Part shown: positions 50,101-61,032 of the stretch, piece after piece | Layout of the letters: each line of letters begins with the position of its first letter | Numbering within the stretch: the first letter of the stretch is position 1 | Assembly: GCF_020405225.1 (NCBI RefSeq) | Contig: NZ_CP084472.1 | Span: 868,001-932,000 of the forward strand | Length of the DNA stretch: 64,000 nucleotides | DNA from: Natrinema sp. DC36 | Lineage (GTDB): Archaea; Halobacteriota; Halobacteria; Halobacteriales; Natrialbaceae | Reading direction: 5' to 3' | Notes under the pieces: model-generated | Databases searched by the model: none | What the model saw: only the letters and a program-made list of their open reading frames with translations | What the model was told of the DNA's origin: nothing | Made by a program: the position numbers and the translations under genes

Positions 50101-51376
50101 CTGCAGTCACCTCGTCCGTCTCCGCGTCAGTTGGTAACTGTTCTCGTTTGCGTCGAGCGACCGTCCGTCGCATCTCGTTTTCGACGATCATATAGCCCTC
50201 GTCGAAGCCCATGCCGGGCTTCGCGAGCACCTGCGCGGCGTTCGTCGCGAGCGCGACGTGAGCGCAGGCGCGTGCGGAGGTCTCCGTCTCGTTACAGGTG
50301 CCTCCGAGGTAGGCGCGGGTATCTGTCCCATCGCAGTAGCGGACCGCCTGTCCGCTGCGGTGGATCCCGCCCAGGTCGGGCGTTTTGACCTGCACGAGGT
50401 CTGCCGCGCCCGCGTCGACGAACGCCTGCACGTCCTCGAAGGTGTTACACCACTCGTCGGCCACGATGTCGACGCCGACGTTGGCAGCGTCGAGCCCCTC
50501 GCGGAGTTCGACCATCGCGTCGATCTGGTCGGCCCGGTCGCCGACGTCCATCGGCCCCTCGATCTGAATCGGGTAGGGGGCCGCGGCTTCCTCGAGCGCG
50601 GCGAAGTAGTCGACCACTTCGTCGCGATCGTAGGGTGCGCCGAAGATCTCGCCGATCATGCCGTAGACGTCGATGTGGAAGCGGGGCTCGTACCCCTCGG
50701 GGCCCAGTTCCTGAGAGCGCTCGACGAGCCATTCGACGTACTCGAGGAGGACCTCGCCGTTCTCGCCGATCTTCTCGACGCTGTTGATCAGCGCGTGGGG
50801 CAGGACCGGGACGCCCTTGACGAACATCTTCTCCGTGTTGTTGTAGCGGTCGTCGCCGGACTGGCCGAAGACCGGCACCGGCTCCGTCGCGGGCTCGGTA
50901 CCCAGCGCGTCTGCCATGACGTCCGTCTGCGTCGTCTTCTCGGCTTCAGCAGCCGCGGCGAGAAGCGCCTGCGAGACGCCGTAGCGGATCGCCGTGTGGA
51001 GTCGGTCGCCATCCACCTGCAACTCCTCGAGCAGCTCCGCGTTGTCGAGGAACTCGGTCGCATCTCGGCCCTCGAGTTCGTCGGCGACGGGGCCCTCGAT
51101 GACGGGGGCGTACTCCTCGGCTTTGAACAGCGGGTCGCGCCCGCCGGCACCGGAGTACTGGACCGCGGCGCAGTCGCCTCGGACCACGGTGCCGTCGGCG
51201 AGTTCGATGTCGACGATGATCGTTTCGCCGGCCTGGCGAATCTCGTCGAAGCCGTCGGTGACCGGCTCGCCCTCGTAGGTGAAGCCGTCGTGTTCCGCTC
51301 CTTGCTTGATCGCGCGCTGGTCGTCGAAGAAGAACCCGGAGTAGCCGGGCGTTGCGTATATTCCTGTAATGTTCAT
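50093..51376 (-). CDS. mal: Methylaspartate ammonia-lyase
   Basis: The 427-residue enolase-superfamily enzyme begins M-N-I-T-G-I-Y-A-T-P-G-Y-S-G-F-F-F-D-D-Q-R-A-I, has F-H-I-D-V-Y-G-M-I-G-E and Q-I-E-G-P-M-D-V-G-D-R metal-ligand strands, V-A-D-E-W-C-N-T and Q-V-K-T-P-D-L-G-G-I-H (catalytic Lys). It removes ammonia from threo-3-methylaspartate to give mesaconate. Its ATG overlaps the mamB stop by 4 nt (ATGA). Confidence 0.95.
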   Translation of the reverse strand: MNITGIYATPGYSGFFFDDQRAIKQGAEHDGFTYEGEPVTDGFDEIRQAGETIIVDIELADGTVVRGDCAAVQYSGAGGRDPLFKAEEYAPVIEGPVADELEGRDATEFLDNAELLEELQVDGDRLHTAIRYGVSQALLAAAAEAEKTTQTDVMADALGTEPATEPVPVFGQSGDDRYNNTEKMFVKGVPVLPHALINSVEKIGENGEVLLEYVEWLVERSQELGPEGYEPRFHIDVYGMIGEIFGAPYDRDEVVDYFAALEEAAAPYPIQIEGPMDVGDRADQIDAMVELREGLDAANVGVDIVADEWCNTFEDVQAFVDAGAADLVQVKTPDLGGIHRSGQAVRYCDGTDTRAYLGGTCNETETSARACAHVALATNAAQVLAKPGMGFDEGYMIVENEMRRTVARRKREQLPTDAETDEVTADD

Positions 51377-52812
51377 GGTGATGCGTCACCCTGCGGTCGG
51401 CCGATGAGCTTGCCATCGCTGATCGCGTCGACGTCGTCCGCGACCATCCGGAACGACTGCTCGCGCCCTTCGGTGTCCGCGCGCTGGGACAGTCGGGCGC
51501 GGTGAATCTCCTTGATGTCCTCGTCCATCTCGAGGTCGGCCCACTCGAAGATGCGGACGCGACCGTCGTCGTCTCGCGCGGGCAGGACGGCACCTGCCGC
51601 GCTGTCGCTGGGTGCGAAGGGGACGTCGAGCGCACCGGAGTCGAAGGCCTTGAGCGTTCCCTGGACGACGTCGCCGTCGCCGTGCTCGAAGATGGTGTCC
51701 ATCAGACAGCGGGTTTCGCGCTCGATGAGGTCCTGTTCCTCTTCGATGCCGTCGATGTCGATCTGCTGTTCGATCGCCATGTCGATGACCTGGCGCGTCG
51801 TGCGCAGGCCGGCCGAGTTGGCCTCCATGGTCGGCACCCCCTGGAACTCCTGGGGCGACTTGGTGATGACCTTGTCCGGCTGGGCGATGGCGGCGGTCAT
51901 GCCGCCGAAGCTGATGACGCCGTTCGCGCGGGCCTCGTCCGGCGGGAAGCCGCCCATCCACTCGTGGAAGACGGTGGTCACGACGACCTCGTCGGGCAGA
52001 TACTCGTTGCCCAGCTTCTTGAGCGCGTGCAGGGCGGCAACGTCCTGGACGATGTTGCCGACCTGACCGTAGCCGAGCGTGATCGAGCGCACGCCCTGGG
52101 TCGCCGCTAACTTCCCCTCGACGAGCATGATCGCGATCGCGATCGAGGGCGGGACGAGGGTACCGGTGAGCGGCCCGAACGGCTCGCGGTTGATCCGCAC
52201 GCCGCGTTCGGTGTAGGCTCCCGCCAGCCGGTCGACGAACTGCCACTTCTCGATGGTCTCCTCGAGGCCGTGGCGTTTCGTGTACGGAATGTTGTAGGAG
52301 ATCGGGCCCCCCTCGAAGCTCTGGAAACCGCCGGCAAAGGTGATCGCCGCGAGCAGCCGGGCGTCCGGGGTGCCGTGGCGCACCTCGATCGGCGCGTCGA
52401 CCGCGTCGATCAGTTCGCGACAGCCGTCGACTCCGTGATTGACGGCCGGGAAGCCGTTCAGGGTGTCGTCGCCCGTCTCGAGGGCCTTGTCGAGGCCCTG
52501 CTGGGCCTTCTCGTATTCGTTGTCACGCGTGTACGAGTCGATCGTGGTCGGGAGGAGATCCGCCTGGCCCTCCTCGAGGAGGTATCGCAGGAGTTCGATC
52601 TGGTCGTCGAGCCGGGGCACCCCGGCTCGCGGCTGGAGAAGGGGTTTGTCGGCTGACTCGAGGACGTCGGCGAATCGCTTGTGGTCGGGCAGCGACTCGT
52701 GGTACGCGATTGCGTCCTCGAAGTCGACGTCTTCGCCCGTGTGCCAGCCGGATCGGATCTCTTCGTCGATACGCCGTAGCTCGTCGGATGGAATGCGTTC
52801 GTCTCGTATCAT
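51373..52812 (-). CDS. mamB: Glutamate mutase epsilon subunit
   Basis: The 479-residue TIM-barrel subunit has R-A-G-V-P-R-L-D-D-Q-I-E-L-L, F-P-A-V-N-H-G-V-D, V-R-H-G-T-P-D-A-R-L-L and E-P-F-G-P-L-T-G-T-L-V-P-P. It binds glutamate and, with MamA, carries adenosylcobalamin for the carbon-skeleton rearrangement to 3-methylaspartate. It starts 8 nt after the mamA stop and is coupled to mal at its own stop. Confidence 0.95.
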   Translation of the reverse strand: MIRDERIPSDELRRIDEEIRSGWHTGEDVDFEDAIAYHESLPDHKRFADVLESADKPLLQPRAGVPRLDDQIELLRYLLEEGQADLLPTTIDSYTRDNEYEKAQQGLDKALETGDDTLNGFPAVNHGVDGCRELIDAVDAPIEVRHGTPDARLLAAITFAGGFQSFEGGPISYNIPYTKRHGLEETIEKWQFVDRLAGAYTERGVRINREPFGPLTGTLVPPSIAIAIMLVEGKLAATQGVRSITLGYGQVGNIVQDVAALHALKKLGNEYLPDEVVVTTVFHEWMGGFPPDEARANGVISFGGMTAAIAQPDKVITKSPQEFQGVPTMEANSAGLRTTRQVIDMAIEQQIDIDGIEEEQDLIERETRCLMDTIFEHGDGDVVQGTLKAFDSGALDVPFAPSDSAAGAVLPARDDDGRVRIFEWADLEMDEDIKEIHRARLSQRADTEGREQSFRMVADDVDAISDGKLIGRPQGDASP

Positions 52813-52820
52813 CTAGACAT

Positions 52821-53261
52821 CTACGAACTGATAGTCGCCCGTTCCGACTCCGTCGGTTTGATCTGGAGATCTTCGCGGAGCGCGGCGATCGCGTCTTCGG
52901 GATCGGTTTCGGAATCGAAGACGCGGTCGAATCCGAGCTCCCGGAACGTTTTCCGGGTCTGTTCGAACTCGTCCTGTCCGACGGCGAGGTTGCCGCCGAT
53001 GTAGCTGACCGCGTCGACGTCCGCGTCCTCGAGGACGCTGTGGAATCCCTGGCAGTCCTGCTCGGCGTGGCCGTAGAGCGAGGAGACCAGTACGGCCTCC
53101 GCGTCGTGCGCTACTGCGGCCTCGGCAAAGTCCTCCTGAGAGGTCTGGACGCCGAGGTTCACGACATCGAAGCCGGCTGCACTGAAGGCTTGCTCTAAGA
53201 TTGTGATGCCAACGACGTGGGCATCGGAGCCGATCACGCCGAGGACGACCGTTTGGGACAT
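52821..53261 (-). CDS. mamA: Glutamate mutase sigma (cobalamin-binding) subunit
   Basis: The 146-residue product has the B12-binding G-S-D-A-H-V-V-G signature (D-x-H-x-x-G) near residue 10, V-L-V-S-S-L-Y-G-H-A-E-Q-D and Y-I-G-G-N-L-A-V-G. Adenosylcobalamin binds base-off through that His. The ATG at 53261 (MSQTVVLGVIG) lies about 30 nt after a TATA-like ggtttatagg on the minus strand, whereas the ATG at 53276 is too close to it. Confidence 0.94.
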   Translation of the reverse strand: MSQTVVLGVIGSDAHVVGITILEQAFSAAGFDVVNLGVQTSQEDFAEAAVAHDAEAVLVSSLYGHAEQDCQGFHSVLEDADVDAVSYIGGNLAVGQDEFEQTRKTFRELGFDRVFDSETDPEDAIAALREDLQIKPTESERATISS

Positions 53262-53286
53262 CGTACTCGAAACCATGATGGACCGG

Positions 53287-55333: not shown

Positions 55334-55734
55334 CAGGTTTATATCACAGGAATGGTTGTTAAACCTCCCTCCCGTTACAGATTCTGAGTCGTGAGCCGTC
55401 GTCGTGCAGCGGTCACGACTTCACCGTCCCGAACGATGCGGTGGCGCTCGAGCGTCAGCTACCGGAATCCAGTCGGGGACCGACTCCGTCATCGTGGGGC
55501 GGCGACTCGAGTGGCCCCCGCTACCAGCAGTTTCTTACTGTGACGATTCGAGGTGGCAGGTATCATGGGGTTGCCGGACAATTCGTAAAAGCATTTGGCT
55601 CGCAAAGATTGGATACACTCGAGTCCCCGGTTCCGAACCGGCCGCCCGACGAGTGATGTCGGCAGGTGGTGTGTGGTGGTTCGATCGGACCCGCCGACCG
55701 GCCGGCTGATCGTCGGGGCTCGAGTCCCCCCGAC
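55334..55734. other. Intergenic region leading into duplicated module copy 1
   Basis: No gene is seen. The first 280 nt have no match elsewhere in the window. From about 55618 the sequence is part of the duplicated module, including a 15-bp palindrome (ccggttccgaaccgg, 55627-55641). Confidence 0.55.
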
Positions 55735-55905
55735 CTACTCCTCGCGAAGGCTCGGAAAGAGGTCCGGCGGGACCGAACAGCCGCAGGGAGCGACGGAGCC
55801 GGTGTAGGGCCCGGTGGCGGTCGAGAACAACACGGGGTCGCCACAGCGCGGACAGTCGGGGAACGGCGACTCGTCGTCGTCGCTCGCGTCCGAAGGGCTA
55901 TCCAT
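55735..55905 (-). CDS. CPxCG-type zinc-finger micro-protein, copy 1
   Basis: A 56-residue ORF gives an acidic N-terminus (D-A-S-D-D-D-E-S), C-P-R-C-G near residue 18-22, then F-S-T-A-T-G-P-Y-T and P-C-G-C-S-V-P-P-D-L-F. The same pattern is encoded at 58109-58306. The two C-x2-C / C-x-C pairs resemble haloarchaeal CPxCG zinc-finger micro-proteins, some of which affect biofilm or swarming in Haloferax. The stop is at 55735. The homology of the two copies is the main support. Confidence 0.8.
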   Translation of the reverse strand: MDSPSDASDDDESPFPDCPRCGDPVLFSTATGPYTGSVAPCGCSVPPDLFPSLREE

Positions 55906-55969
55906 CGCGACCGCGCCTCGGTCGGTGCGGCGAGGACGCTACTCGTGTCGGGCGATTCGACGGTCGTGC

Positions 55970-55986
55970 GGGACGTTTATATCCCG
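55970..55986. promoter_or_regulatory. TATA box inside an inverted repeat, copy 1
   Basis: cggga-cgtttata-tcccg places a TATA box within 5-bp inverted arms. It is 25 nt upstream of the ATG at 56004 on the plus strand, and it also reads gatataaac on the minus strand toward the zinc-finger gene. The same arrangement is at 58374-58390. Confidence 0.55.
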
Positions 55987-56003
55987 GTAGAATGAACGCA
56001 ATC

Positions 56004-56107
56004 ATGGCAACCGAAGCGTTCCGCTTTGGAAGCCACGTCTCGGGTGGTTCCAGCACCCGGGGCATTTCGATGCAGCCCCTCGCTCGTGCGTTTAGAGACT
56101 GGCTTCC
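56004..56107 (+). ncRNA. Candidate structured RNA (or leaderless micro-ORF), copy 1
   Basis: A long-range stem (56028-56035 with 56100-56107, extended by gtctc/gagac) encloses two hairpins: gggtg...caccc (56042-56058) and gcat-ttcg-atgc (56062-56073, with flanking ggg/ccc). A third hairpin precedes it (56011-56028). In copy 2 the stems persist while loops and some arms differ. The same start also begins a micro-ORF of 59 codons (M-A-T-E-A-F-R-F-G-S-H-V-S-G), so coding is an alternative. Confidence 0.4.
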
Positions 56108-56185
56108 GTTTGGATTGTTGACCTATTGTGACTTATATCTATTGTTACTGCGGAGAAAGAGAGTCCGCCTCGAGCCACCCTGAAC

Positions 56186-56461
56186 CCCGAACCACCGACG
56201 CTCGAGTCCGCTCGAGAGCGCGACGGTGGTATCGTACGAGGCATCGATCGGTCCTCGCTCGCTTTGCGATGCACTCACTTCGTCCGCCCATCGCATCGCT
56301 CGGACGTGATCTCCAACGCGCGCCACCGCACGGTACCAGTATGAGCCGACGGTTCGATAAGTGCGTGTGCACACGTGCTGCGGATTTTGTGTAGAGTAGT
56401 GGATTCGATCCTCAGTGAGCGAAATAGCGCGTTCGTGCGCTCTTCTTCGGCGTGTGTCGGA
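56186..56461. other. Spacer with fragment of dispersed repeat
   Basis: No gene. Bases 56316-56330 (cgcgcgccaccgcac) match the second block of the repeats at 1 kb and 19.7 kb, suggesting a truncated third copy. Confidence 0.45.
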
Positions 56462-56854
56462 CTACTTGGACTCCGGTATCTGAACTTTGAGACTGCCAGT
56501 GCTGCTTACCGCGACTTCGCAGTCGTGAAACTCGAACACGACGCGAAAATCATCTCCAGTAGTCTCTGATGGCGTGGTAACTGAATCAAGTGCATCCGGA
56601 TCAACTGTCGAATATAGCGGTTCCATATTGAGTGGATCCATATTAGAGACGGCCGCAACTGCATTTACAACGGCGATACTCGGGGACGCGTCATTGAAGC
56701 GATAAATCGCTCGATAAACCCCTTCATCGGCGTCGTATTCAACCGACTCGAGCTCACAGTAGTCTTCTTCGACGTCGAAAGTTCCTGATTGTTCTAGCAG
56801 TGATACCTCGAGAGCTTTTCGGCTATCCGGAGATTGGGAGTCAGTGTCAGTCAT
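56462..56854 (-). CDS. HalOD1 output-domain protein
   Basis: The 130-residue protein matches the haloarchaeal HalOD1 domain: S-I-A-V-V-N-A-V-A-A-V-S, N-M-E-P-L-Y-S-T-V-D-P-D-A-L-D-S-V and V-V-F-E-F-H-D-C-E-V-A-V. HalOD1 is a small output domain often linked to sensor genes. The ATG at 56854 follows an in-frame GTG at 56857. Composition is less GC-rich than flanking genes. It lies downstream of the Bat-HTH gene on the same strand. Confidence 0.85.
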   Translation of the reverse strand: MTDTDSQSPDSRKALEVSLLEQSGTFDVEEDYCELESVEYDADEGVYRAIYRFNDASPSIAVVNAVAAVSNMDPLNMEPLYSTVDPDALDSVTTPSETTGDDFRVVFEFHDCEVAVSSTGSLKVQIPESK

Positions 56855-56929
56855 CACTTCATCTTTAATCGCTTAACCGAGGTGACTCTGGCCGTTTCCT
56901 GCACAATGGAGTATTTAAGCGTCGTTCGT

Positions 56930-57574
56930 TTACGGACGGAATTCGGTCAGCGTTTGTTCTATGAGACGGCGGTTGCCACGTCGCAATCGAGCACCGAGTG
57001 CCTGCTGTGAAATTTCAAGGTCATCGGCGATCTCCTTCAATGTCGTACCCCGCGGCGAATCGAAGTACCCACGTTCATACGCCAGAATAAGCGCATCACG
57101 TTGTGAGTCCGTGAGGTTCTGCTTCACATCGAGCGGGCGGAGTGCGTGGAGTTCTGTCAAACTGACTGGGATACCGTGGTCGTGGCAGTATTCGCGGAAC
57201 TCCGCAATCGCCTTTCGACTTTCACCGCGAAGCTCAAACGTCCATTGCTTCTCAGTCCCGATAGCCGATAACAGAACCACTTCTGGAGTGATTAGCGCGT
57301 CGAGTACGCCATCATACTCTGGAACCCATGCACATCGCATAAGAGTCTCGCCATCAGTGCTATCGACGACACGAATATCTCGTACGCCGGGATGATCCGA
57401 GAACTGCTTTACGATCGTATCACTTTCCGTCCCTCGCACCCAAAAATATGGGACGACGCCGTTTGTATCCGGGATAACCCGTTCAAGTTGAACGGTTACA
57501 TCTGGTAATGTCGCAAACACGGTTCCCAGGGGAAACTCATCGGCTGCCAACGTGAATTCAGCTACGGTCGCCAT
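56930..57574 (-). CDS. Bat-type HTH transcriptional regulator
   Basis: The 214-residue protein begins M-A-T-V-A-E-F-T-L-A-A-D-E-F-P-L-G-T-V-F, the typical Bat N-terminus, has L-D-A-L-I-T-P-E-V-V-L and Q-W-T-F-E-L-R-G-E-S. An HTH-10 domain follows (L-T-D-S-Q-R-D-A-L-I-L-A-Y-E-R-G-Y-F-D-S, T-L-K-E-I-A-D-D-L-E-I-S). It is 76 nt upstream of the HalOD1 gene and both lie between the two module copies, making it a candidate regulator of them (inference). Confidence 0.9.
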   Translation of the reverse strand: MATVAEFTLAADEFPLGTVFATLPDVTVQLERVIPDTNGVVPYFWVRGTESDTIVKQFSDHPGVRDIRVVDSTDGETLMRCAWVPEYDGVLDALITPEVVLLSAIGTEKQWTFELRGESRKAIAEFREYCHDHGIPVSLTELHALRPLDVKQNLTDSQRDALILAYERGYFDSPRGTTLKEIADDLEISQQALGARLRRGNRRLIEQTLTEFRP

Positions 57575-58108
57575 TTATACGTTCTCTCCAACGTCCACAC
57601 GACCGGGCATCTCCAGCACTGTATGACGGCGTTCAGAGGTATATTACTCCATGTGTCCATGAGATATTCATCTCAACAGGCGGCTGGGTAGACTACGGAA
57701 ATGAGATTTATTCAATTTCTCCCCGATGCAATTAGGATGTGATAATATGAGTGACTGACTCTCATCGAGTAGCCGGATCGTGCATCTGCCCGTAGAATAC
57801 GCACGCAGTTACATAACAAGCTATAGATATAAATGCGCCTGATTGCATCCCAGCGGTCGTGGTAACAACTTCACCTGTACTTACCGCCGGTTTCACAGCG
57901 CATTCTCGATGAGGGAACCGCGCTACGATCTACGACGAACGAGCCTGAACTGCGAACCAGGATTCCGATAGGCCGCGTCTATCGGTACCCGGACTCGAGG
58001 CCCCGGTTCCGAACCGGCCGGCCAGCGAGCGATGTCGACGGGTGGTGTGCGGTGATTTCGATCGGACCCGCCGACCGACCTGTCGATCGTCGAGGCTCGA
58101 GTCCCGAG
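57575..58108. other. Intergenic region before module copy 2
   Basis: The 534-nt region has no accepted gene. Its first 350 nt are AT-richer than the genome background. From about 57992 it joins the duplicated module, including palindrome ccggttccgaaccgg at 58003-58017. Confidence 0.55.
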
Positions 58109-58306
58109 CTACTCGTCGCGCTGGACGAGGTTCGGCGGCACCGAACAGCCACAGGGACTGGCCGACGCCGTCAGCGGGCCGGTGACGGTGACGAAACCGA
58201 CCGGGGTACCGCAGCGCGGGCAATCGGGGCGCGACGATAGGTTGCCGTCGCTCTCCTCGAGACGCGGCGATGAGCCACCATCGCTCTCCCCGGTGTTACG
58301 ACTCAT
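58109..58306 (-). CDS. CPxCG-type zinc-finger micro-protein, copy 2
   Basis: The 65-residue protein has a variable Ser/Glu-rich N-terminus, then P-D-C-P-R-C-G-T-P-V-G-F and the C-terminal S-P-C-G-C-S-V-P-P-N-L. It is a clear paralogue of the 55735-55905 product: the Cys pairs, T-G-P and C-S-V-P-P are shared. One C-x2-C plus one C-x-C would bind a single zinc ion. Its role is unknown. Confidence 0.82.
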   Translation of the reverse strand: MSRNTGESDGGSSPRLEESDGNLSSRPDCPRCGTPVGFVTVTGPLTASASPCGCSVPPNLVQRDE

Positions 58307-58373
58307 CGCGACCCCCCATCGATCGTCCGTGCAGAATCGACAGTACTTGAGTCGGGTGGTTCTGTTGTCGTGC

Positions 58374-58390
58374 GGGATGTTTATATCCCG
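58374..58390. promoter_or_regulatory. TATA box inside an inverted repeat, copy 2
   Basis: cggga-tgtttata-tcccg has the same layout as copy 1. The ATG at 58408 is 25 nt downstream on the plus strand. Confidence 0.55.
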
Positions 58391-58407
58391 GTAGAATCAA
58401 CGTAATC

Positions 58408-58504
58408 ATGGCTTTCGAAGCCTTCCGGCTTGGAAGCCACGTCTCGGGTGCTTGCTTCACCCGGGGCATTTCGATGCAGCCCCTGTTCTCTATGAGTGGC
58501 TTCC
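58408..58504 (+). ncRNA. Candidate structured RNA (or leaderless micro-ORF), copy 2
   Basis: The outer stem is 58432-58440 with 58496-58504 (9 bp). Inside are cgggtg...cacccg (58445-58463) with a different 7-nt loop from copy 1, and the same ttcg-capped hairpin. The preceding hairpin (gaagcc/ggctt) is shifted by one register relative to copy 1 yet still pairs. The micro-ORF here is only 36 codons (M-A-F-E-A-F-R-L-G-S-H-V-S-G) and differs in its end from copy 1, which weakens the coding view. Confidence 0.4.
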
Positions 58505-58815
58505 GTTTGGATTGTTGACCTGTCGTGACTTATATCTACTGTTACTCGATCGGAATAGATCTCGGCCTCGAGTGCGAACCTGTCCTCGAAGCCCAGCACC
58601 GCTGACGAGCGGCATCGAACGGCCGGACGAATTGCGACGACCGCTCGCGGGCGGGGTGGCCCGAACCGCTCGACCGTCGCCGACAACTTTAGCCGACGAT
58701 ACCGACCGCTGGATCGTCTCAGCCGGCGGCTGCGCCCGCACTCGAGGGGGAGCGCGACAGCCGCAATCGGACCGGGCCCAAATGTATATCCCTCTCGTGA
58801 CCCGAGTAGTGGGGT

Positions 58816-61032
58816 ATGTGCACTCGAGACGAGTCCCCCCACGGGAGCGTCTCGATGGGGTCGATCTGCGTCCTGTACGTGGACAACGGGCAGACGGATG
58901 CAGCGATGACCGCGTTCCACGAGCGGGCGGACATCGCCATCGAAACGCTCACTGTGACCACCGCGAGCGAGGCCCTCGACCGCCTGGCTGAGACGGCGAT
59001 CGACTGCGTCGTCTCGGAGTACGACCTGCCCGATATGGACGGCCTCGCGTTACTGGATGCCGTTCGGGCGCGGGACGAGGAGCTGCCGTTTATTCTGTTT
59101 ACGGGGGTGGGCTCGGAGGCGATCGCCAGCGAGGCGATTTCGGCCGGGGTCACGGACTACGTCCGGAAAGACGACTCGGCGGACGGCCGCGCTGCCATCG
59201 CCGAGCGGGTTATGAACGCCGTCGAGACGACGCGAAGCCGCCCGCAACAACAACAACGCCAGCTCCGCGCCATCGAAACCGCACGGGAAGGTATTAGCCT
59301 GCTCGACGCCGACGGCCGATTCGTCTACGTCAATCGGGCGTACGCTGATCTCTACGGCTACGAGCCCGCCGACCTGATCGGCGAGCACTGGGACCGATTG
59401 TATCCGGACGACGAGACCGAGCACGTCCGCGACGTGATCATCCCGACGGTGAATGCCGAGGGCGACTGGTGCGGCGAGACGACGGGCCTCCGGGCGGACG
59501 GCAGCACCTTCGTCGAAGCCCACTCGCTGTCGACGACCGGCGACGGCGATCTGATCTGTACGGTCCAGGACGTAACGGACAAAAAGGAACGCGAGCGCGA
59601 TCTCGAGCGCTACGAGACGATTATCGGCGCTCTCGGCGATCCCGTCTACACGGTCGATTCCGCGGGCCGGTACGCGTTCGTCAACGACGCCTACGCCGAA
59701 ATGACCGGCTACGAGAAGGACGAAATCGTCGGCCAACACGTCTCGTTCCTGCTCGATGAGCCGTCCGTCGAACGCGGCACCGACTGCGTCCGATCGCTGC
59801 TCTCCGATGAGACGGCTGAACGCAAGCGCACCTACGAGATCACCGTCGAAACGAGCGACGGCGAACCGATCCGATGCGAGGATCACCTCTCTCTACTGCC
59901 CCTCGAGGACGGCCGGTACCGCGGCGTCGCCGGCGTTGTTCGTGATATCACCGAGCGCACGGCCCGCGAACGGGAACTCGAGCGCGACGAGACGATCCTC
60001 GAGACGATCCCCGACGAGGTGTACGCGCTCGACGACGAGGGGTACGTCACAAAGGTCGTCCCGCCGATCAACGCCGAGGTGACGACGACGGGGTACCGGC
60101 CCGAGGAACTGGTCGGCGAACACGTCTCGATCATCATGGGCGACGAGGATATCGCCACCGCCGAGGCGGAGATTCGTGCACTGATACAGTCGGACGGCCG
60201 CGAACACGCTTCGTTCGAAATGGAGACGATCACGGCGGACGGCGAACGCGTGCCCAACGAAAACCATATCGCACTTCTCCCACGGAACGAGGACGGCCGC
60301 ATCCAGGGAACCGTCGGCGTCTTGCGCGATATAACCGAGCGCAAAGCGCGCGAGCGCGAACTGAAAGCGCAGAACGAACGACTCGATCGCTTCGCCGGCA
60401 TCGTCTCCCACGATCTCCGGAACCCACTGAACATCGCGCAGGGGCGACTCGAGATGGCCCGCGAGACCTGTGACTGCGCCGTCGATGACCTCGAGGCCGT
60501 CGCGTGGGCGCACGACCGGATGTCGGTCCTGATCGAGAACATCTTGACGGTCGCACGGGAACGCGATCCGTCGCTGGACGTCGAATCGGTCGACCTCGCG
60601 GCGCTCGCCGAGGACTGCTGGAACCACGTCGAGACGGCCAACGCCGCGTTACGAATCGAGACGGACGCCGTCGTTCGCGCCGACCGGGCTCGACTCGCAC
60701 AACTCCTGGAGAATCTGATCCGCAATGCGGTCGAACACGGCGGCCAGCGCGTCACGATCACCGTCGACGACCTCGGAGAAGCGGCTGGCAGCGGCTTCTC
60801 CATCGTGGACGACGGCCTCGGTATCCCGGCGGACGAACGCGACCGTGTCTTCGAGAGCGGCTACTCGAGCGCCGAGGGTGGGACCGGCTTCGGACTCTCG
60901 ATCGTCGACCGGATCGCCGAGGCCCACGGCTGGACCGTGACCGTCACGGACGGGGACGACGGCGGGACGCGGTTCGAACTGACCGGCGTCGAGCGGGCGG
61001 ATCGGCGACGAGCCGACGGCGACGGAGAGTAA
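58816..61032 (+). CDS. Hybrid sensor histidine kinase (REC-like, three PAS, HisKA, HATPase)
   Basis: The 738-residue soluble protein has an N-terminal receiver-like domain (about 14-125), three PAS domains (about 150-515) and a HisKA domain with His532 in I-V-S-H-D-L-R-N-P-L. The HATPase has N-L-I-R-N-A-V-E-H-G-G and T-G-F-G-L-S-I-V. In the receiver the phosphorylatable Asp position is Glu68 (V-V-S-E-Y-D-L-P), so this domain may be locked or only structural. A TATA-like atgtatatcc near 58782-58791 lies about 29 nt before the ATG at 58816. The signal sensed is unknown. Confidence 0.92.
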   Translation: MCTRDESPHGSVSMGSICVLYVDNGQTDAAMTAFHERADIAIETLTVTTASEALDRLAETAIDCVVSEYDLPDMDGLALLDAVRARDEELPFILFTGVGSEAIASEAISAGVTDYVRKDDSADGRAAIAERVMNAVETTRSRPQQQQRQLRAIETAREGISLLDADGRFVYVNRAYADLYGYEPADLIGEHWDRLYPDDETEHVRDVIIPTVNAEGDWCGETTGLRADGSTFVEAHSLSTTGDGDLICTVQDVTDKKERERDLERYETIIGALGDPVYTVDSAGRYAFVNDAYAEMTGYEKDEIVGQHVSFLLDEPSVERGTDCVRSLLSDETAERKRTYEITVETSDGEPIRCEDHLSLLPLEDGRYRGVAGVVRDITERTARERELERDETILETIPDEVYALDDEGYVTKVVPPINAEVTTTGYRPEELVGEHVSIIMGDEDIATAEAEIRALIQSDGREHASFEMETITADGERVPNENHIALLPRNEDGRIQGTVGVLRDITERKARERELKAQNERLDRFAGIVSHDLRNPLNIAQGRLEMARETCDCAVDDLEAVAWAHDRMSVLIENILTVARERDPSLDVESVDLAALAEDCWNHVETANAALRIETDAVVRADRARLAQLLENLIRNAVEHGGQRVTITVDDLGEAAGSGFSIVDDGLGIPADERDRVFESGYSSAEGGTGFGLSIVDRIAEAHGWTVTVTDGDDGGTRFELTGVERADRRRADGDGE

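Follow-up and report, generated by a model that had tools for sequence, protein, structure and literature searches.

An apparently new, riboswitch-like mRNA leader of haloarchaea that precedes small zinc-ribbon operons and RAMP operons

The stretch of Natrinema sp. DC36 DNA that we analysed (64,000 nucleotides, hereafter the window) holds two copies of a short block that, in our judgement, is likely to be a cis-acting 5′ mRNA leader on the minus strand, working as a translational switch for a zinc-ribbon operon. Comparison of sequences establishes the family to which the block belongs, its strand, its leader position, the frames that follow it, its pairing potential and its association with RAMP genes. 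One strand of the leader, b, has two potential partners, the 5′ strand a′, with which it forms helix P1, and strand a, which bears the start codon; as the a′:b and b:a pairings would exclude each other, we infer that the leader acts as a translational switch. Rfam 15, at the gathering cut-off, recognizes no family in the window except a tRNA, and a scan of the block itself returned nothing below E 2.8, the best chance match reaching 11.4 bits against a cut-off of 100. A search of the open-access literature found no description of the leader either. Lacking a family in Rfam 15 and a description found in that literature, the leader is apparently new and, by analogy, riboswitch-like in its working.

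The two window copies (Table 1) are enclosed in a longer duplication (about 55708-56150 with 58085-58546; 71% identity, E 7e-67), and the duplicated block that the initial annotation had picked out is real. Covariance model R1 finds seven leader copies in the genome at E ≤ 2e-12 plus a marginal one at E 0.09; blastn likewise finds seven, with matches in 27 of 61 relatives and in 26 of the 29 genomes of the same genus. The stems drawn earlier are also there: the outer stem of copy 1 (GGAAGCC/GGCTTCC followed by GTCTC/GAGAC), the 9-bp outer stem of copy 2 (GGAAGCCAC/GTGGCTTCC), a first hairpin that is present in both copies with changed sequence, and a GGGTG/CACCC stem that is kept in both with a different loop. 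What stands of the structured RNA proposed at that time is that its stems survive sequence change; what has to be revised is its nature, the RNA being that of the minus strand and the 5′ leader of a zinc-ribbon operon rather than free-standing. Folding is better than that of dinucleotide shuffles on both strands (minus-strand z −2.9 for copy 1 and −3.9 for copy 2; plus-strand z −3.8 and −2.9), so that folding alone has no power to tell the strand of the block; over 166 copies, choosing the strand by folding energy favours neither (89 vs 74, P 0.46). Several features of the neighbourhood may be recorded here. The stretch between the copies (56171-57989) is of lower GC (52.8% over 56001-58000) and carries a minus-strand HalOD1 gene and a BAT/HTH_10 regulator, and a PAS/response-regulator histidine kinase (58816-61032, plus strand) adjoins copy 2 in the opposite direction. 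In another genome (G021) the two units of the window are matched by a single one, which abuts the histidine-kinase gene directly, so that the inter-copy stretch and one copy have been either gained or lost. A second dispersed repeat of ~40-90 nt, in both orientations, lies near two unit copies of the window genome (L003, 1040-1125; L004, 877-963 and 1828-1792). Further away in the window, a methylaspartate mutase E chain gene (PF06368) has beside it a small ORF that we take to be the S subunit (51373-52812 and 52821-53276).

The strand is indicated by start codons, reading frames and promoter together. In distant copies the start codon lies exactly at the conserved CATGG, which reads CCATG on the minus strand, and an ATG stands at the leader end in 166/166 aligned copies, partly by construction because CATGG belongs to model R1. 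Of the 136 main-set copies, 133 have no stop within 30 codons of the ORF1 frame; in the five other frames the corresponding numbers are 23, 12, 35, 66 and 85. In the main-set logo (136 copies), T-33, A-32, T-29, A-28, T-27 and A-26 reach 1.3-1.8 bits, which marks a strongly conserved TATA-like element on the minus strand, 24-29 nt upstream of the leader. The usual archaeal spacing from TATA to start is about 25 nt, and with this distance transcription would begin at the first nucleotides of P1, the probable 5′ end of the leader mRNA. The non-Watson-Crick cells of P1 on the minus strand are mostly U-G and G-U wobbles. An earlier wobble count over all helices, on forward, R1-fitted alignments, gave 119 for forward vs 82 for reverse, with P1 alone favouring reverse; because this count is mixed, the strand call relies on the start-codon, frame and promoter evidence, by which the block RNA is read on the minus strand.

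A free-standing RNA made on the plus strand from a TTTATA element, as the initial annotation had it, would fold equally well, and TTTATA does lie ~29 nt before a plus-strand ATG in most Natrinema copies, that ATG standing shortly downstream of it as described. However, the element coincides with the loop of hairpin PX, within the first ORF1 codons of the minus strand, and is missing in many copies or no longer TATA-like, as with CCTTTTTGTC in G087; start codon, coupled frames, promoter and P1 wobbles, on the other hand, all fit the minus strand. We dropped the plus-strand RNA once the distant families put their start codons on the minus strand, and consider it very improbable. The competing view of a leaderless plus-strand micro-ORF (M-A-T/F-E-A-F-R...) can point to a frame of at least 28 codons from the plus-strand ATG in 110 of 136 copies. 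That frame is not conserved: the distance from ATG to first stem, taken modulo 3, falls into classes of 65, 45 and 26 among the 136 copies, and P3 loops of 6 or 7 nt shift the frame as well. The divergence of plus-strand frames that had been noticed in the window is therefore general, and the micro-ORF retains next to no probability.

Table 1. Features of the two leader units, in window positions
Feature	Position	Strand	Remarks
TATA-like element TATAAG, copy 1	56132..56137	-	24-29 nt upstream of leader; logo of 136 copies
Structured mRNA leader, copy 1 (P1, P2, P4, P3, P0, then AUG), ~108 nt	56001..56108	-	R1 101.5 bits, E 4.1e-20
P1 5′ strand a′, GGAAGCCA	56100..56107	-	mRNA probably starts here, judged by TATA spacing
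P2, copy 1	56099-56095 with 56041-56037	-	
Strand b, UGGCUUCC	56028..56035	-	pairs with a′ (P1) or with AUG strand a; permutation tests, variants
Strand a, GGUUGCCAUG	56003..56012	-	holds ORF1 start codon (56005-56003)
P3 hairpin GGGUG-CUGGAAC-CACCC	56042..56058	-	hypervariable loop
P4 hairpin GGGGC...GCCCC	56059..56079	-	conserved GAAAU before 3′ strand
P0 hairpin, between b and a	56014..56026	-	sequence variable, pairing retained in many copies
PX hairpin CGGGATATAAACGTCCCG, inside ORF1	55969..55986	-	loop holds the plus-strand TATA of the initial annotation
ORF1, copy 1, 35 codons, MIAFILPGYKRPARPSNRPTR...	55898..56005	-	
ORF2, copy 1, zinc-ribbon MDSPSD...CPRCG...PCGC	55735..55905	-	start overlaps ORF1 stop by 8 nt
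TATA-like element, copy 2	58529..58534	-	
Structured mRNA leader, copy 2	58405..58505	-	AUG 58409-58407; R1 96.6 bits, E 5.9e-19
PX hairpin, copy 2	58373..58390	-	
ORF1, copy 2, 37 codons, MITLILPGYKHPARQQNHPTQ...	58296..58409	-	
ORF2, copy 2, zinc-ribbon MSRNTG...CPRCG...PCGC	58109..58306	-	start overlaps ORF1 stop by 11 nt

In the proposed fold, P1 and P2 close a junction that bears P4 and P3. Support comes from a MAFFT alignment (A4) that comprises 38 of the 41 main-set representatives together with L110, L001 and L002; the remaining distant representatives are excluded, and L093 and L095 (long inserts) and the second hit of L165 were dropped. In this alignment 87.1% of the cells of P1, P2, P3, P4 and PX pair. 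Covariation among homologues, which the initial annotation had put forward as a check on a structured RNA, is found, with a score of 0.089 compared with 0.062 ± 0.005 for shuffled alignments (0/500 reach it), pointing to a conserved core with compensatory changes; when partners are slid by up to three columns, pairing is at most 53.4% and covariation is lower. At two loci of G087 (L095 and L097, 1501-1666 in each) P4 contains a similar, hairpin-rich insert of ~60 nt. Since the main set was pre-screened for GGGTG...CACCC, the invariance of the P3 stem within it is by construction. The 30 distant copies, fetched by R1 without such a screen, include eight in which the P3 stem is fully compensated (GGCGUG/CACGCC, GACGUG/CACGUC, CAGGUG/CACCUG). 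P0 is variable in sequence, and in 76 of 166 copies its segment surpasses 95% of its own shuffles in folding. The PX hairpin score is reached by 76% of the 136 main-set copies vs 6% of shuffles, and one of its pairs alternates between G-C and A-T; we do not regard PX as belonging to every leader, the HRAMP leaders described below standing at 18% vs 9% shuffled.

The loop of P3 is 6 nt long in 75 and 7 nt long in 86 of 161 copies, and comprises 104 different sequences; 96 of the 161 have UNR at loop positions 2-4, a U-turn pattern for which shuffled loops give an expectation of 21.8. With the U-turn (YUNR) loops of antisense RNAs, P3 shares a hypervariable loop of 6-7 nt, a conserved stem and the U-turn-like pattern. 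Unlike them, it has no complementary partner in the locus (156 matches vs 152-186 permuted, in ten of 20 permutations, with no position prominent) or between G087 paralogues, where kissing of P3 loops is predicted for 2 of 378 pairs only.

The case for a switch lies in the double complementarity of strand b. Over 146 distinct triples of a′, b and a, with relatedness ignored, the b:a duplex energy is −9.08 vs −8.09 ± 0.07 permuted and the a′:b duplex energy −14.63 vs −12.87 ± 0.13, neither value being reached in 2000 permutations (0/2000). A further 56 distinct leaders, relatedness again ignored, give −9.44 vs −7.74 ± 0.24 for b:a and −15.38 vs −10.98 ± 0.36 for a′:b (0/5000 each). The three strands a′, b and a change together between families; examples, written as b/a, are GGUCUUCC/GAAGACCAUG, GGGUUCC/GAACCCAUG, GGUUUCC/CAACCAUG and UGCUUCC/AAGCAUG. 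The support for b:a derives from these variant families and from the distant ones; within A4 there is almost no covariation of b:a (44/500 shuffles reach the score), and its outer four pairs are formed in 21 to 30 of the 41 sequences. In copies with GGUUGCCAUG, the helix that would hide the AUG is short, with 4+2 bp separated by a U-U mismatch.

By predicted energy, the two states lie close enough together for both to be allowed. For window copy 1 the model gives −48.6 with the AUG region free and −42.9 with the 5′ strand free; the corresponding values are −41.2 and −37.9 for window copy 2 and −43.2 and −44.7 for L031. For L011 they are −43.5 and −40.2, and the unconstrained best fold, at −44.4, hides the AUG. 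These values bear on a static reading, in which the fold does not switch but shields the 5′ end, or keeps translation from the coupled starts at a steady low rate. Leader position, promoter and coupled ORFs are equally solid under it, and the P1 state of window copy 1 is predicted to be much the better one (−48.6 vs −42.9). It leaves unexplained, however, why the AUG strand stays complementary when b changes, and we regard a static element as unlikely.

ORF1, the short frame that the AUG of the leader opens in Natrialbaceae and that begins with MIAYILPGYKRPAR... in many copies, has a pN/pS of about 1 to 1.1, that is, no selection at the protein level; a conserved ORF1 peptide is rejected on this ground, and such conservation as ORF1 has is partly due to hairpin PX. 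For the zinc-ribbon ORF2, on the other hand, pN/pS is 0.61 over 123 pairs, and among the ORF2 orthologues of L001, L008 and L009 silent changes outnumber replacing ones despite three times fewer silent sites. We therefore read ORF1, from the sequences, as the path of ribosomes to ORF2 and not as a product. Among main-set copies, 105 have an ORF2 with CxxC behind an ORF1 that lacks it; 62 of these have the first start of ORF2 at −4 (ATGA) and 21 have it at −8, the others lying from −20 to +6. A CxxC protein, as ORF1 or as coupled ORF2, follows 138 of 166 copies; there is none in the other 28, so that zinc is not a universal theme of the leader. The ORF2 families vary by inspection, comprising CPxCG...PCGC ribbons, ECYRCDR...CCEHC proteins and a ribbon behind a HalOD1-like stretch, and the zinc proteins tested all fall short of the curated cut-offs of Pfam and NCBIfam. 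ORF2 thus resembles the small CPxCG zinc-finger proteins of haloarchaea (PMC2253796, PMC6562870) in being a small CPxCG zinc-ribbon; it differs in that the opening of their abstracts mentions no shared structured leader, and in that the ORF2 proteins tested match no curated family. Two other sets of leaders deserve mention. In family f17 (L121-L139) the leader lies, in several copies per genome, upstream of SWIM-like zinc-finger proteins (MSTKxPSELEADETAQ...CTCPHH...CKH) whose SWIM match is at E 0.08 only. In G071 (L140-L148) most of the fetched leaders open a longer ORF1 (MIAYPLPRHKRLARHSVRSTRIAARPRCVFG...) that has no CxxC partner; these may be a different target class or decayed copies.

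The family is large, and in our searches it is haloarchaeal. Model R1 matches 82 of 125 Natrialbaceae genomes and 24 of 29 genera, and in a single genome (G087) it finds 32 leaders at E<1e-6 and one more at 0.004. An order-wide search with R2, a second covariance model that includes distant members and does not count b:a among its pairs, gives matches at E ≤ 1e-4 in 157 of 392 genomes and 60 of 95 genera; the family- and order-wide scans scored a limited number of candidates per genome (31 and 10, respectively), so that their copy numbers are lower bounds. An exact pattern occurs in 113 stretches of one collection of 84,980 prokaryote species, and all 80 of the matches listed bear haloarchaeal names. 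A phage or virus origin was rejected, as the leader has no blastn match in phages and its exact pattern is absent from viral contigs. So many copies per genome, and local gain or loss such as the one unit of G021 against two in the window, might suggest a dispersed mobile or REP-like DNA element. What is conserved, however, is RNA pairing, promoter and coupled ORFs, nearly every copy examined leads into a gene, and most distant copies of the window genome share no sequence outside the unit; such an element is thus extremely unlikely.

In families beyond the Natrialbaceae, the leader is often found upstream of a zinc-finger ORF1 that is followed by a RAMP protein. When genomes were searched with the RAMP protein only, 89 of 382 matched, and 29 of the best 30 RAMP loci carry the leader (E ≤ 6e-4 in 118 kb), in the orientation of the genes and several hundred bases upstream of the RAMP gene; L269 is the one locus among these 30 without it. 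A second class of RAMP proteins (54-59% identical to the query) has the leader in 5 of 20 loci (E<1e-3, within 3 kb upstream). Three loci (L274, L276 and L277) have RAMP genes with one in-frame stop, and the leader is still present. The operons encode Csm3/Cas7-like, Cmr3/Cas5-like and RNase H-like proteins, on profile matches that are weak but concordant (PF03787 E 0.002, Csm3 5e-4, Cmr3 2e-4); comparison of the RAMP protein with solved structures gave no convincing match. Named plasmids carry the leader as well (Haloarcula halobia, E 3.9e-10; Halolamina sp. CBA1230, E 7.9e-10), with an HNH endonuclease gene downstream in both. By gene content, these operons fit HRAMP, an array-less CRISPR-derived system of haloarchaea, as its descriptions in PMC8730458 and PMC12669027 present it, the array-less character being given in PMC12669027. 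The leader is common to operons with the same components in other families (Csm3/Cas7-like RAMP, Cmr3/Cas5-like, RNase H-like, HNH), and it departs from the published picture in that neither a leader nor any RNA component figures in the HRAMP passages of these two papers.

The leader might also, or mainly, be an RNA partner of HRAMP, processed from the mRNA and scaffold- or guide-like, with the P3 loop as its variable reading part and the Natrialbaceae copies as related RNAs with zinc-ribbon partners. We consider this quite improbable; if true, it would supply the RNA that those passages of PMC8730458 and PMC12669027 leave unnamed. The window genome (G000) has no RAMP match at E ≤ 1e-10, and the window copies are not HRAMP components; G087, with its 32 leaders, has no RAMP match either. 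As both genomes have leaders without RAMP, the leader is not a part of HRAMP only, and RAMP is not its general ligand. The same result narrows a further reading, in which the leader serves as an operator whose junction is bound by a protein, either a common RNA-binding one or the zinc protein itself; this amounts to our preferred explanation with a protein as the ligand. It would resemble the control of translation by ribosomal proteins on their own mRNAs. P2, P3 and P4 are common to all copies while the downstream proteins differ, and the U-turn-like hairpin of P3 (96/161 against 21.8 expected) would suit a protein. On the other hand, RAMP is ruled out as the common factor by G000 and G087, and the occurrence of one RNA with several unrelated protein families makes it unlikely that each product regulates its own mRNA. 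We hold an operator of this kind to be possible, with the balance of probability against it.

For the translational switch, which we prefer, the mechanism would be as follows, with transcription, switching, coupling, any ligand and any role in defence all being inferred. Transcription from the minus-strand TATA-like element would yield an RNA that starts at P1. In the ON state, P1 would be formed and hold b, leaving the AUG free; in the OFF state, b would be paired to a and the AUG hidden. The junction, with its conserved GAAAU, and P3 would form the sensor, and the small molecule, ion or protein that it detects would be shared by all copies; the genes downstream point to no particular ligand. 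Ribosomes translating ORF1 would be brought to the zinc-ribbon start that overlaps it and would open this start by coupling. In this manner a single signal would govern numerous operons of small zinc proteins and also, in other haloarchaea, those of HRAMP defence. Position in the 5′ region of an mRNA, as expected of a riboswitch, is indicated by the promoter logo, the AUG and the coupled ORFs. With translational riboswitches, the leader shares its 5′ location, a conserved multi-helix core and, as proposed, a strand that could enter either the helix closing the core or a putative helix covering the start. It differs in hiding, as proposed, the AUG itself and not a Shine-Dalgarno sequence, in feeding a non-conserved ORF1 that is coupled to the target, in being confined to haloarchaea in our searches, in its dozens of copies per genome and in having no Rfam match.

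If the proposed mechanism is right, haloarchaea would possess their own class of leader RNAs, which controls translation through concealment of the start codon and in some genomes does so at more than 30 loci. It would be a natural archaeal switch to set beside the synthetic ones applied in PMC8241225. Furthermore, HRAMP would be connected with a regulon of small zinc proteins that are so far unexplained, and there would be a handle on when HRAMP is switched on.
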